Assembly (NCBI GenBank): GCA_036275915.1
Contig: DASUCV010000004.1
Coordinates: 451,238 to 515,237, forward strand
Origin: Candidatus Polarisedimenticolaceae bacterium
Lineage (GTDB): Bacteria > Acidobacteriota > Polarisedimenticolia > Polarisedimenticolales > DASRJG01
DNA length: 64,000 nt
Direction: 5' to 3'
Both the position numbers and the translations under genes were made by a program. Shown piece by piece: positions 52,099 through 60,427 of the stretch. A model generated the notes under the pieces. That model saw nothing but the letters and a program-made list of their open reading frames with translations. It was not told the DNA's origin and ran no database searches. The first letter of the stretch is position 1. Each line of letters starts with the position of its first letter.

Positions 52099-52158
52099 CA
52101 CAGAGGGGACAGCGTCCGAAACTCTGAAGTACGAGTTTCGGAAGCTGTCCCCTCTGTG
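52099..52158. repeat. Inverted repeat A (GGGGACAGC family)
   Basis: Two 26-base arms with one mismatch and an 8-base loop, starting two bases after a stop codon. The arm contains AGAGGGGACAGC followed by TCCGAAACT, nearly the same as element B at 58033. The spacer to the next gene contains one more GCTGTCC fragment. Confidence 0.93.
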
Positions 52159-55057: not shown

Positions 55058-57067
55058 TCAGACCGGCCGGAGGATCACGAGATCGGCCCGGGGGTTGACC
55101 CGCTCGATCCTGAGACGCACGCGATCGCCGAGATTGACTCCCGACAGCGAAGGTACGACTTCCTCGAGGAGCGTCTCGTCGAGCACGACGATCGGACGCG
55201 GAGAGGTCTCGACGACGACGCCGGTCACGCTGCCGCCGCGCGCGCGGTCGAGCCACCTGAGCATCCAGTAGCGCGCGACGGCGCGCTCGGAGCGGCGCGC
55301 CTCGAGCTCGGCCCTCTCCGTCGCCGCGAGGATGCGCTGCATCGCGGGGACGTCGTACGGCGGCGGTCCGCCGCCGAGCACCGCGGCGATCTGGCGATGG
55401 ACCGCAAGGTCCTGATAGCGCCGGAGCGGCGACGTCACCTGCGCGTACGCCGCGACCCCGAGGCCGTGGTGCGGTCCGGGCTGGAGCGAGGTCTCGGCGC
55501 GCTTGAGCATGCGCCGCACCGCGCGCACGTGCACGGCGAACGGGAGCGCGGGATCGGCTTCCGGGAGGCGGCCGTCGGACGGTGCCTGGCGCCGGAAGAT
55601 CGCGGGGATCCCGCGCGCCGTCAGCCAGCCCGCCGCCATCTCCCCCGCGAGGATCATCGCTTCCGAGACGATCCGCTGCGACGGCGTGTCGGGATCGCGC
55701 CGCGTGAGCGTCATGGCACCGCCCTCGCCGACGCGGATCTCGGCCTCGGGAGCGCGGAGCGACACCGCGCCCGCCGCGCGACGGACCGCGTCGCGCGCCT
55801 CGGCGAACGCGAGGAGCCGTGCGAGGAGTGCCGCGTGCGGCCCGACGGCGGAGCTCAAGGCGGCGTCCGCCTCGTCGTAGTCGAGACGCGCGCCGATGCG
55901 GAGGAGCGAGCGCGCGATCTCGAAGCTCACCGTGCGGCCGCCGGCATCGACGGTCGCGAGGAAGCTGACCCCCGGCCGCTCCTTCCCCTGGACGAGGCTC
56001 GCCTCGTCCTCCGAGACGGCGCCCGGGAGCATGAGGAGCTTCCGCTCGGGGAAGTAATAGGTCGTCCCGCGCGCAAGCGCCTCGACGTCGACCGGTCCGT
56101 CGATCGGAACGACGGCGGCGGGATCGGCGATGTGGATGCCGACGACGACCTTCCCATCGCCGGCGTCGGTGACGGAGAGCGCGTCGTCGATCTCGCGAGT
56201 CTGCGGATCGTCGATCGTGACCATCGGAACCGCGGTCAGGTCGAGCCGTCCCTCGCGCGCAAACGGCGCGACCGCAGGGAACGGCGGGAACTCCGTTCTC
56301 AGGCCGTAACGGACGATCATGAGGTTCTCGTCGTCCGAGGCGAACCGGCCGGTCAGTCGGAGGAGACGGAACGCGGCCTCCGGCAGCCGGTCCGCGGGAA
56401 TGCGCGAGGCGGTGATCGCCTCGTGGGCGAGCGCGCGCTCCTTCTCCGGCGTGTCGAGCTCGTCGAGCGCGACCGCCTCGAGCGCGGCGAGGATCTTCCG
56501 TTCGGTCTCCGAGCCCGAGGGAACGAACGCATCCCCGCGCACCGCCCGAACGAGCGCCTCGATCGCGGACCCCTTCTCCGCCGCGCGCTCAGCCGCCTTC
56601 CGGCGCCCGTCGAGGATCTCGGTGACTACCGCCGCGTCGCGCGGCAGCCACCCCGAAGTCTTCCGCTGGAAGCGGACGCCGTCGGCGCCGAGCGCGATGA
56701 CGGTCGCGAGGCGCGCCGCCTCGTCCACCCGCCCGAGGGCGAGATCGGCGAGGGTCGACTCCGAGAGCGTCTCCCCCCGCTCGTGGACCAGGTCCCACAG
56801 CGTCGGCACGTCGACGGCGTCGACGAGCCGTCCCACGGCTTCCCCCGCCGCCGCCGCGCGCGCCGCCGCCTCGCGCACCCCCTCGCTCGTCCGCGCGGGT
56901 GCGATCCCTCCGGCGAGGACGGCGGTCACGCGCGCCGGCGCGACCCGCTCGTCCTTCCCTTCGCGGGTCACGACGACGAGGCGCTGCTTCTCTTCCCCGA
57001 TGACGACGCCGTAGGCCATCGTGTCGTCGCGCCAGTACGCCACGGTGCTGCCGGGCGCGGGCGCCAT
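55058..57067 (-). CDS. RNase II/R-family 3'-5' exoribonuclease
   Basis: The 669-residue protein has the RNB catalytic motif TIDDPQTREIDDALSV (metal-binding Asp cluster), HIADPAAVVPIDGP, and YAQVTSPLRRYQDLAVHRQI, and a C-terminal OB/S1-like domain. The N-terminal 200 residues differ from E. coli RNase R/II and resemble the shorter cyanobacterial/chloroplast RNR type (AYGVVIGEEKQRLVVVTREG). The ATG overlaps the VWA stop. Its place within a MoxR-VWA chain is unusual. Confidence 0.9.
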   Translation of the reverse strand: MAPAPGSTVAYWRDDTMAYGVVIGEEKQRLVVVTREGKDERVAPARVTAVLAGGIAPARTSEGVREAAARAAAAGEAVGRLVDAVDVPTLWDLVHERGETLSESTLADLALGRVDEAARLATVIALGADGVRFQRKTSGWLPRDAAVVTEILDGRRKAAERAAEKGSAIEALVRAVRGDAFVPSGSETERKILAALEAVALDELDTPEKERALAHEAITASRIPADRLPEAAFRLLRLTGRFASDDENLMIVRYGLRTEFPPFPAVAPFAREGRLDLTAVPMVTIDDPQTREIDDALSVTDAGDGKVVVGIHIADPAAVVPIDGPVDVEALARGTTYYFPERKLLMLPGAVSEDEASLVQGKERPGVSFLATVDAGGRTVSFEIARSLLRIGARLDYDEADAALSSAVGPHAALLARLLAFAEARDAVRRAAGAVSLRAPEAEIRVGEGGAMTLTRRDPDTPSQRIVSEAMILAGEMAAGWLTARGIPAIFRRQAPSDGRLPEADPALPFAVHVRAVRRMLKRAETSLQPGPHHGLGVAAYAQVTSPLRRYQDLAVHRQIAAVLGGGPPPYDVPAMQRILAATERAELEARRSERAVARYWMLRWLDRARGGSVTGVVVETSPRPIVVLDETLLEEVVPSLSGVNLGDRVRLRIERVNPRADLVILRPV

Positions 57068-58341
57068 CACAGCCTCCGGACCAGCTCGGCGACGCCGGCC
57101 GCGAGGCCGTCGAGATCGTTCGCCTGAGCGACGACGTCGACCGAGAGGAGATACGCGGGAAGCGCCGAGTCCGCGGTCCCCCATCGCGACGCCGGCTCGG
57201 GAACGAGCCAGATCAGCGCCCGGCACCCGCGCGCGATCTCCTCGAGCGCCCAGGGAAGCGGATCGAAGCGGTTCGTCCTGCCGTCGCCGAGGACGACGAG
57301 GACCATGTCGCGCCCGCGCGGTCTGAGCCTTCCTGCGAGCAGGGAATGGAACGCGCGCCCGTAGTCGCTCGGCGCGTCGAGGTTGAGACCCTCGATCCCG
57401 TCGAGGACGTCGGCGAAGGCGACGCCGCGCCGCGCGATCCCGTCGCCCGGCCGGGCACCCCGGCGCTTCTTGGGCGACGCGAGGCGCGAACGCCCGCGCG
57501 CCCAGCGCGCGATCGCCGCCGTCGCATCGACCGGCTTGTCGACGAAAGCGAGCACACGCGCGCGCCGGCCGAGATCGAGGAACGCCGACGCCATGAGCAG
57601 GAAGAGTCCCGCCGCCCTCGCGACCGAGAACGACACGTCGACGAGGAGGATGACGCGCGCCGTCTTGCGCTTCGGCCTCCGATACGGGAGCACGAACGGC
57701 ACGCCGCCCGAGGCGAGGCTCTCGCGCATCGCGCGGCGCATCCACGGCCGGCCCGCGCGCGCGCGCTCCATCCGCCGCGCGCGCCGGAGATCGATCTCGC
57801 GCACGAGCCGCGGGATCTCCCGTGCGAGGGCGCGCTCCTCGTCGGTGGTCATCCGCCGCGACAGCTCGGCACGGCACGGCGACGCCGCGTCGGCGGGAGC
57901 AGGCATCACGATCCGTTTGCGGAGGCGGCCGGGGCGCCGCTCGTCCCGCTTCCGTTCGGAGCGGCCTTCCTCGTTCGCTCCCGCAGCCGCGCGCGGATGC
58001 TTCGGCTCCGTTTCCTGCGGCCGGAGCTTTCGAGAGGGGACAGCTTCCGAAACTTGTCGTGCAGAGTTTCGGAAGCTGTCCCCTCTTCCAGCAGGGCGCC
58101 CGACTCCCTCGCCCTTCCCCGGGAGCTTCGGCGCCGTGAAGAACGCGTCGAACAGGCGATCGAAGGCGAGGGCCGAGCGGCGATCCTTCGCGAGCGTCGC
58201 GCGGAGCGCCGAGCGCACCTCGTGGCGCTTCTCGAGGCCGACGAGATCGAGCGCACGTGACGCGTCGATCAGCTCCGCGGGCGAGACCGGGTGTCCCGAG
58301 CGGCGGAGCGCGTCGGCGAATCGTACGAGAGCCGGAATCAT
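57067..58341 (-). CDS. VWA-domain protein (CoxE-like), partner of MoxR
   Basis: The 424-residue protein has a helical N-terminus, then an Arg-rich linker, then a VWA domain with the MIDAS motif ILLVDVSFSVARAAG (D-x-S-x-S), VLAFVDKPVDATAAI and VLVVLGDGRTNRFD. MoxR-VWA pairs act as chaperone-like or metal-insertion machines. An 18-codon block (residues 86-103, RGDSFRNSARQVSEAVPS) is exactly the inverted repeat at 58033-58086, inserted without breaking the frame. The ATG at 58341 overlaps the MoxR stop. Confidence 0.88.
   Translation of the reverse strand: MIPALVRFADALRRSGHPVSPAELIDASRALDLVGLEKRHEVRSALRATLAKDRRSALAFDRLFDAFFTAPKLPGKGEGVGRPAGRGDSFRNSARQVSEAVPSRKLRPQETEPKHPRAAAGANEEGRSERKRDERRPGRLRKRIVMPAPADAASPCRAELSRRMTTDEERALAREIPRLVREIDLRRARRMERARAGRPWMRRAMRESLASGGVPFVLPYRRPKRKTARVILLVDVSFSVARAAGLFLLMASAFLDLGRRARVLAFVDKPVDATAAIARWARGRSRLASPKKRRGARPGDGIARRGVAFADVLDGIEGLNLDAPSDYGRAFHSLLAGRLRPRGRDMVLVVLGDGRTNRFDPLPWALEEIARGCRALIWLVPEPASRWGTADSALPAYLLSVDVVAQANDLDGLAAGVAELVRRL
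58033..58086. repeat. Inverted repeat B (GGGGACAGC family), inside the VWA coding sequence
   Basis: Two perfect 22-base arms (58033-58054 and 58065-58086) with a 10-base loop. Its arm (AGAGGGGACAGCTTCCGAAA) is nearly identical to element A. Its length of 54 bases and its boundaries coincide with codon borders of the VWA gene, adding 18 residues and no stop in that frame. Confidence 0.95.
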
Positions 58342-59252
58342 CCGCGGAAGCGCGACGGATCGGCGAGGACACGCTCGACGTCCTCGCGGTTCTTGAGGAG
58401 CGCGCCGAGCGTCTTCTTGAGCGCTCCCGCCGAGAGCCCGTCGGCGCCGACGGCGACGAGCGCGAGCGCCCAGTCCACGACCTCGGCGATCCCGGGCGCC
58501 TTCTTGAGGTCGGCCTTGCGGAGCGACTGCGCAAAGCGCACGAGACGCTCGGTCAGCGCGACGGAAATCCCCGGCACGCGCGCCTCGACGATCCGGATCT
58601 CGTCCTCGGTCGTCGGGTAGTCGACGTAGAGGTAGAGGCAGCGGCGGCGAAGCGCGTCCGACAGCTCGCGCGTGTCGTTCGACGTCAGGACGACCCGCGG
58701 CGGATGCGCGGCTTTCAGCGTTCCGAGCTCGGGGATCGACACCTGATGGTCGGAGAGGACCTCGAGCAGGAACGCCTCGAACTCCTCGTCCGAGCGGTCG
58801 ACCTCGTCGACGAGAAGGACCGCCGGTCGCTTCGTGAGAATCGCCTGGAGGAGCGGCCGTGGCAGCAGGAAGTCGCGCGAGAAGAAGCCGTCGGCCTCGT
58901 CCCTCAGAATCGCGATCGCCCCCGCGAGGTCGGCGGCACGTCCGAGAATCTCCCCCGTCTTGTCGCGCAAGAGCTGCGCGTAGAGCATCTGCTTCCCGTA
59001 CGACCACTCGTAGAGCGCTTTCGCCTCGTCGAGCCCTTCGTAGCATTGGAGGCGGATCAGCTCCGCGTCGTGGTACTGAGCCCAGAGCTTCGCGATCTCC
59101 GTCTTGCCGACGCCCGGCGGTCCCTCGAGGAGGAGCGGCTTCCCGAGCGCGTCCGCCAAGAAGAGCGAGGTCGCGACTTCCGGCGCCGCGATGAACCCTG
59201 ACTCGGCGAACCGGGCCGCGATCGTCTCGGGCGATATTTCCTTGCGGGACAT
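58338..59252 (-). CDS. MoxR-family AAA+ ATPase
   Basis: The 304-residue ATPase has Walker A LEGPPGVGKTEIAKLWA, Walker B VLLVDEVDRSDEEFEAFLLE, and the sensor-like VVLTSNDTRELSDALRRRC, followed by YVDYPTTEDEIRIV. Together with the following VWA gene (ATGA overlap) it forms a typical MoxR-VWA pair, used elsewhere for maturation of metalloenzymes and stress functions. The ATG at 59252 is preferred because it lies 7 bases after a TACAAT -10-like box; an ATG at 59261 would sit inside that box. The chain continues through RNase, HdrD-like, Rieske and NuoI-like genes. Confidence 0.92.
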   Translation of the reverse strand: MSRKEISPETIAARFAESGFIAAPEVATSLFLADALGKPLLLEGPPGVGKTEIAKLWAQYHDAELIRLQCYEGLDEAKALYEWSYGKQMLYAQLLRDKTGEILGRAADLAGAIAILRDEADGFFSRDFLLPRPLLQAILTKRPAVLLVDEVDRSDEEFEAFLLEVLSDHQVSIPELGTLKAAHPPRVVLTSNDTRELSDALRRRCLYLYVDYPTTEDEIRIVEARVPGISVALTERLVRFAQSLRKADLKKAPGIAEVVDWALALVAVGADGLSAGALKKTLGALLKNREDVERVLADPSRFRG

Positions 59253-59259
59253 CGGCGTC

Positions 59260-59265
59260 ATTGTA
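59260..59265 (-). promoter_or_regulatory. -10-like box of the MoxR operon
   Basis: Read on the minus strand this is TACAAT, followed by GACGCCG and the ATG at 59252. It is the mirror image of the box at 59350 within inverted repeat C. Confidence 0.5.
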
Positions 59266-59349
59266 GGTGACGGGAATTAATAAGGGGACAGCTACCGAAT
59301 TTCGCACTTCAGAAATTCGGTAGCTGTCCCCTTATTAATTCCCGTCACC

Positions 59350-59355
59350 TACAAT
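59350..59355 (+). promoter_or_regulatory. -10-like box of the thioesterase-FAH fusion gene
   Basis: TACAAT is followed by GCGCGCG and the ATG at 59363. No ribosome-binding site lies between, and no clear -35 is visible in the arm. Confidence 0.5.
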
Positions 59356-59362
59356 GCGCGCG

Positions 59363-60427
59363 ATGCAGGCGCCGCCCTTCAACCAGTACCTCGGCATCCA
59401 CGTCGACCGCATGGAGGGTGGCGAGGCGGTCGCGCGCATCGAGCTGGGCCCGCACCACACGAACAATCGCGGCGTCGCGCACGGCGGGGTCGTACTCTCG
59501 CTCCTCGACTCCGCGATGGGCGCCGCGGTGATCTCGGCCATCCCGAAGGAGTGGTGGTGCGCGACGACGGGGCTCAACGTGCAGTTCCTCACCGGGCCTC
59601 GCGAGGGGAACATCACGGCCGAGGGGCGCGTGACGCGCCGGGGGCGGACGGTCGCCTTCGCCGAGGGCCGCGCGCACGACTCGAAGGGGACGCTCGTCGC
59701 GACCGCCCAGGGCACGTGGCACCTGTGGCCGCACAAGCCGGAGATCGACGGCCGCGACGCCGGCGAAACGGTCGTCGTCCAGGGAACGGGAGCGCGCCTC
59801 CGCGTCGGCAAGATCCTCGCCGTCGGCCGCAACTACGCCGATCACAACGTCGAGATGGGTGGCACCCCCGCGACGCCTCCGGTCTTGTTCCTGAAGCCTC
59901 CGTCGGCGCTTGCCGGCGACGGCGCGCGCCTCACGCTGCCCGAGGGTTTCGGCCAGGTCCACCACGAGGTCGAGATGGTCGTCGTCATCGGGAAGCGTGG
60001 CCGCACGATCGCCGAAGCCGACGCGATGGATCACGTGCTCGGGTACGCCGTCGGTCTCGACCTGACGTTGCGCGATCTTCAGAACGAGGCGAAGAAGAAG
60101 GGCGAGCCCTGGGACCTCGCGAAGGGGTTCGACGGGTCGGCGCCGGTCTCGCTCGTCGTTCCGAAAGAAGCCGCGGGCGACGCGGGCCGGCTCGCGCTCA
60201 CGCTCGACGTCAACGGGACCCGCCGCCAATCGGGGAGCACCGCGCAGATGCAGCACAAGATCCCCGCGCTCGTCGCGCTCGCCTCGCGGCTCATCACGCT
60301 CGAGCGCGGAGATCTCCTCTTCACCGGCACGCCGGCGGGCGTCGGTCCGATCGTTCCCGGCGACCGCCTCGAGGCGCACCTGGGCGATCTCGTCTCGCTC
60401 CGGGTCACCGTCGAGCCTCCCAGGTGA
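59363..60427 (+). CDS. PaaI-type thioesterase fused to a fumarylacetoacetate hydrolase domain
   Basis: The 354-residue protein joins two domains. Residues 1-130 are a hotdog-fold thioesterase (NNRGVAHGGVVLSLLDSAMG; the H-G-G and Asp of PaaI-like enzymes; RRGRTVAFAEGRAHDSKG). Residues 150-354 are an FAH-family domain with VGRNYADHNVEMGG, metal-ligand region VHHEVEMVVVIGKRGRTIAE, and LDLTLRDLQNEAKKKGEPWD. Separately, these domains act in aromatic and acyl-CoA breakdown; their fusion suggests two consecutive steps. The ATG at 59363 is 7 bases after a -10-like box; an ATG at 59354 would add three residues. The stop overlaps the next GTG. Confidence 0.88.
   Translation: MQAPPFNQYLGIHVDRMEGGEAVARIELGPHHTNNRGVAHGGVVLSLLDSAMGAAVISAIPKEWWCATTGLNVQFLTGPREGNITAEGRVTRRGRTVAFAEGRAHDSKGTLVATAQGTWHLWPHKPEIDGRDAGETVVVQGTGARLRVGKILAVGRNYADHNVEMGGTPATPPVLFLKPPSALAGDGARLTLPEGFGQVHHEVEMVVVIGKRGRTIAEADAMDHVLGYAVGLDLTLRDLQNEAKKKGEPWDLAKGFDGSAPVSLVVPKEAAGDAGRLALTLDVNGTRRQSGSTAQMQHKIPALVALASRLITLERGDLLFTGTPAGVGPIVPGDRLEAHLGDLVSLRVTVEPPR

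Follow-up and report, generated by a model that had tools for sequence, protein, structure and literature searches.

The window, i.e., the whole stretch of 64,000 nucleotides that we analyzed, contains a palindrome of the layout AGAGGGGACAGCTTCCGAAACT - TGTCGTGCAG - AGTTTCGGAAGCTGTCCCCTCT inside a protein-coding gene. Its two perfect arms are separated by 10 nucleotides. The host gene and the neighboring gene for a MoxR-type ATPase likely form an operon. We list these features below, together with related hairpins in the window.

57067..58341, minus strand: intact gene, with the element inside, for a VWA (CoxE-like) protein of 424 aa (Pfam PF05762, E 3.7e-24)
58338..59261, minus strand: gene for a MoxR-type AAA ATPase (Pfam AAA_5, ORF call), with a 4-bp overlap with the VWA start
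58033..58086, minus strand: 54-bp palindromic element of the CTTCC subtype, in phase 0, encoding RGDSFRNSARQVSEAVPS
58033..58054, no strand: left arm of the element, 22 bp, whose GGGGACAG core begins at 58036
58065..58086, no strand: right arm of the element, 22 bp, 100% complementary to the left arm
52102..52155, no strand: second CTTCC-subtype copy, abutting the stop codon of a plus-strand gene, between convergent genes
59281..59334, no strand: related hairpin of the CTACC subtype, between divergent start codons
63515..63637, no strand: related hairpin of the CTACC subtype with a longer inner stem-loop, intergenic; the SDR-type gene upstream takes its stop codon from it

On the minus strand, the element is bounded by codon borders, and RGDSFRNSARQVSEAVPS forms residues 86-103 of the VWA protein. 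An earlier note on this DNA had described a 54-bp palindrome lying in phase with the gene, and had stated that the same family is intergenic elsewhere in the window; the perfect arms, the codon borders and the last three features listed above agree with this description. When folded as RNA, the element reaches -42.4 kcal/mol (z -10.7), and none of 200 shuffled sequences was equally stable. A separate observation concerns the CTACC-type hairpin that separates the MoxR gene from the divergent hydrolase-type gene. At 59250-59365, this hairpin extends to 54-bp arms that are 93% complementary. These extended arms reach both start codons, and the entire intergenic region is therefore one inverted repeat.

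The element was also said to lie in a linker that precedes the VWA domain. A structure prediction supports this placement in that residues 70-152 have pLDDT < 50 and are predicted to be disordered, in a moderate-quality model built from six sequences. Aligning VWA homologues, a check that had been proposed with the original observation, showed that the orthologues (43-59% identity) are without the element's peptide. The linker comprises 117 aa here versus 99-142 aa in four orthologues, and because its length is so variable, no net insertion is measurable in this protein. Since the linker, predicted to be disordered, is not longer than in the orthologues, we infer an insertion from the repeat family. 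Most likely, the VWA copy is a neutral passenger in the disordered linker.

The arm pattern AGGGGACAGCTNCCGAA has 66+62 matches in the 4.53-Mb genome, and the reversed control pattern has 0, so its abundance is not due to chance. The CTTCC family comprises about 60 copies. Among the matches listed, which cover stretches around most copies, there are at least 52 CTTCC-subtype pairs, a count that leaves out a few degenerate copies beyond the hundred listed places. Exactly 54 bp with AGA/TCT edges is found in 36 of the 52 pairs, and the length is a multiple of 3 in 44 of them. In the 36 standard copies, only 1.3% of arm positions deviate from the consensus. Their 8-nt loops are unique in 33 of 36 cases, with a mean identity of 51% versus 34% expected from shuffled composition. 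This combination of near-invariant arms and variable loops could also come from selection or gene conversion, rather than from recent movement.

The same genome contains the sister subtypes CTACC, TAACC, GCACC and TCACC. Among 99 relatives searched, none has the exact CTTCC subtype. Related GGGGACAGNNNCCGA hairpins, which belong to other subtypes, are abundant in a handful of genomes and were seen in G002, G006, G209, G235 and G249. We looked for in-frame copies in genomes G002, G006 and G001, and found none that were convincing. Rfam gave no match over the gathering score, only sub-threshold matches to generic hairpins, and a literature search for the literal repeat motif returned no relevant paper. 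Several contig ends (e.g., those of C1, C3, C6, C9, C10 and C15) lie within about 100 bases of a hairpin. The assembly is therefore probably interrupted by the palindromes or by a repeat that lies behind them, and some copies, or a gene for a transposase, may have escaped the analysis.

When the flanks were scanned for codon usage, six copies, i.e., 6 of the 52 pairs, were placed within open genes. Their host genes, whose names are supported by Pfam, and the peptides that the copies encode are as follows.

VWA gene, window 58033-58086: RGDSFRNS-x-VSEAVPS type
Penicillin-acylase-type protein (PenA), L047: RGDSFRNS or close variant ... VSEAVPS
Kynureninase (Kyn), L066: RGDSFRNS or close variant ... 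VSEAVPS
O-antigen ligase/TPR protein (OAg), L071: RGDSFRNS or close variant ... VSEAVPS
LigD (DNA ligase D), L085: RGDSFRNS or close variant ... VSEAVPS
PEP-utilising/PPDK_N protein, L074:1582-2841: element in another frame, EGTASET...EFRKLSPL

The element is palindromic and spans 18 codons, so both orientations lead to the same peptide except for the loop. In a scan of the 52 pairs, most copies were stop-free in most reading frames. Given this lack of stops and the prevalence of lengths divisible by three, the in-frame state is largely automatic and does not strongly indicate that coding is selected. The use of the same frame in five of six host genes is no more than suggestive. The small number of intragenic copies would fit the removal of most insertions into genes. 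Two further genes, in L053 and L072, were considered as being split by a copy; we rejected both, as the element was found at gene ends instead. In L053, the frame of a methyltransferase-type gene closes in a 53-bp copy at 2475-2527 (C-terminal EGTASET and a stop), and a dienelactone-hydrolase-type gene follows closely.

None of the orthologues of the host genes from relatives has the element's peptide in our alignments. The idea in the earlier note that a palindrome can create in-frame, stop-free protein sequence is thus borne out in part: the element is dispersed, occurs in five more genes and has no counterpart in orthologous proteins. It does not, however, cleanly lengthen its hosts, as it stands where orthologues have native residues.

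We assessed this by comparing the stretch between conserved anchors in the host with that in aligned orthologues from relatives. Because these orthologues are only 40-70% identical, the replacement reading rests on protein alignments of variable regions. In kynureninase, the anchored stretch has 17 residues, all derived from the element, versus 6-7 in 11 orthologues. The stretch in the O-antigen ligase has 22 residues versus 14-17 in eight orthologues, with the element in the place of about 10. The LigD linker has 24 residues versus 21-25 in four orthologues, so that the element occupies the position of a linker of roughly the same length, and the penicillin acylase stretch has 27 versus 19-20 in the two nearest relatives and 28-35 in others. 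The extreme case is the PEP enzyme, where 33 residues stand against 227-228 in five orthologues; about 195 are missing, and the element lies at the junction. Judging by these alignments, the element stands in place of native residues in several hosts, and these residues would have been lost either with the insertion or later.

The sites in the host proteins are tolerant positions. At the kynureninase site, the loop is likewise long in human kynureninase, in PenA, the insert stops 5 residues short of the Ser that begins the mature beta chain, and the LigD site is an interdomain linker. A length of 18 codons, a hydrophilic peptide and the usual lack of stops would explain why proteins tolerate the element.

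For the 52 copies, we looked for signs of how the element arrived. Direct repeats at the edges, as expected from a target-site duplication, are at chance level (1 observed versus 1.0 expected at k=3). Palindromic flanks are in excess, with 11 versus 2.0 expected at k=3 and 6 versus 0.3 at k=6. The copies in L050, L051 and L060 are nested inside GGGGACAGTAACC hairpins, and these three and the copy in L062 sit at the exact center of hairpins of other subtypes.

Only two Y1 transposase genes were found in the genome, in L038 and L031. The L038 gene is intact, carries NHVH and YIELNP motifs and is bounded by GGGGACAGTAACCGAGTTTTTCTTAC inverted repeats; its protein matches the NCBIfam model REP_Tyr_transpos with E 1.6e-18, which is below the model's cut-off. 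The GGGGACAGTAACCGAG repeats that flank one Y1 gene are a sister subtype. The L031 gene has no paired GGGGACAG repeats flanking it. We also observed that this second intact Y1 gene (L031:1477-2154, REP_Tyr_transpos) has TGGGGACATTCTGCTTTTTC upstream; the nested L062 copy is flanked by this sequence as well. Neither of the two Y1 genes in the assembly is flanked by arms of the CTTCC subtype. It is plausible, from motif and nesting, that this subtype is tied to TIRYT transposases.

We consider it probable that 58033-58086 is a palindromic mobile element that is non-autonomous and whose terminal inverted repeats are of the GGGG[A/T][C/G]A[C/G] type, a kind linked to TIRYT (RAYT-like Y1/HUH) transposases. 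Such an element would be an inverted-repeat pair closed by a short loop, and would move as a hairpin of single-stranded DNA, mobilized in trans by a Y1 transposase. Its insertion would displace a short piece of the target instead of simply adding to it, and it would be retained in genes only where its 17-18 codons are harmless, i.e., in surface loops, interdomain linkers or a propeptide. A bolder proposal is that the hairpin replaces target DNA rather than adding to it, consuming hairpin loops, native loop codons or whole gene segments while its own loop varies. By this exchange, it would act as a patch that keeps the reading frame and puts a standard peptide of 17-18 residues where protein loops had been. 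We regard this proposal as tentative and somewhat unlikely.

Some of the observations would also follow if the palindrome were a fixed regulatory or structural DNA site (a terminator or protein-binding site) that is homogenized by selection or gene conversion, with the intragenic copies being accidental. The arms are indeed near-invariant despite differing loops, and several copies directly adjoin a gene end or separate convergent genes. However, this subtype is present in only one genome, the one under study, among 100 searched, and the nesting in other hairpins and the transposase bounded by related repeats point to mobility, which makes a fixed site improbable. We likewise see only a small chance that single arms were copied by fold-back (snap-back) events in replication or break repair, which would renew the loop and remove adjacent target DNA with no need for a transposase. 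This process could account for the nested copies that are perfectly symmetrical including their outer flanks, for variable loops and truncated single arms, and for the loss of native residues, up to the approximately 195 aa in the PEP enzyme. However, palindromic flanks of at least 4 bp occur in only 10 of the 52 pairs, and fold-back copying alone fails to account for dispersal to about 60 sites.

It is also conceivable that the VWA copy is under selection, either because its peptide functions as a linker or because its hairpin pauses the ribosome or polymerase between the domains, as had been raised originally. The hairpin is extremely stable, and its position in the protein is a linker, predicted to be disordered, that joins the N-terminal domain to the VWA domain. 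However, the same hairpin occurs at unrelated positions in unrelated genes and mostly between genes, and the orthologues do without the element with linkers of 99-142 aa, so we find such selection very unlikely. Because unrelated genes share the element, we rejected a linker function specific to VWA as the main reading.

Coding palindromes are known mainly from Rickettsia, Wolbachia and a number of REP-rich genomes, and what moves them is often unclear. Here they are present in protein-coding genes of another genome, with a plausible link to TIRYTs, six hosts and signs that native residues were lost. Six hosts in one genome make up a natural series in which to ask where proteins can tolerate a standard insert of 18 residues, and how such elements move. 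In-frame palindromes as such are already known from Rickettsia (reviewed in PMC10969869) and among GTAG/CGTC REPs (PMC3733652).

The Rickettsia palindromic elements (RPEs; Ogata et al. 2000, 2002) are described, in the reviews PMC10969869 and PMC2996958, as in-frame palindromic repeats that encode a conserved peptide in unrelated protein genes, typically in non-structured protein segments. The element studied here is similar in being in frame in six unrelated genes, five with the same frame and a conserved peptide. However, RPEs are about 150 bp long according to the review, while the present copies have 54 bp, perfect arms and GGGGACAG ends, lie in another genome and come with a loss of native residues at the site. 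Judged by these descriptions, the CTTCC element is probably a repeat family other than the RPEs. Perfect palindromes within translated genes are also found in mitochondria of Nematomorpha, but there, the arms encode conserved protein positions and there is no dispersed repeat family (PMC6649704). Classical MITEs of DDE transposases differ by the target-site duplication, which is absent from the 52 copies here.

REPs and REPINs of the GTAG type with their RAYTs are closer, being short, many-copy, Y1/HUH-linked hairpins that are sometimes intragenic (PMC3733652 and PMC3116915). However, the present element has no GTAG/GGAG foot, has edges of the form (C/A)AGAGGGG...CCCCTCT(T/G) in most copies, and its one stem is long, perfectly paired and has terminal GGGG. 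The name TIRYT was given to transposases whose flanking inverted repeats contain GGGGWSAS (Di Nocera et al. 2013, PMC3733652; PMC6006769), and TIRYT elements belong mostly to subclass 2.1 in PMC6006769. In the text consulted from PMC3733652, the repeats with intragenic units are those of the GTAG and CGTC types; TIR repeats are not among them. Unlike TIRYTs and TIRtrons, the CTTCC subtype comes with no dedicated transposase in this assembly. Nevertheless, it shares with them the GGGGWSAS motif, the arm core GGGGACAG being present in nearly all paired copies, and the arrangement in inverted pairs (dimers), and the same genome has a Y1 transposase that is flanked by such repeats and carries an HUH motif and catalytic Tyr (NHVH and YIELNP in L038). 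Based on these sequence features, the CTTCC element probably works like the TIR repeats of the TIRYT type and is probably derived from them.
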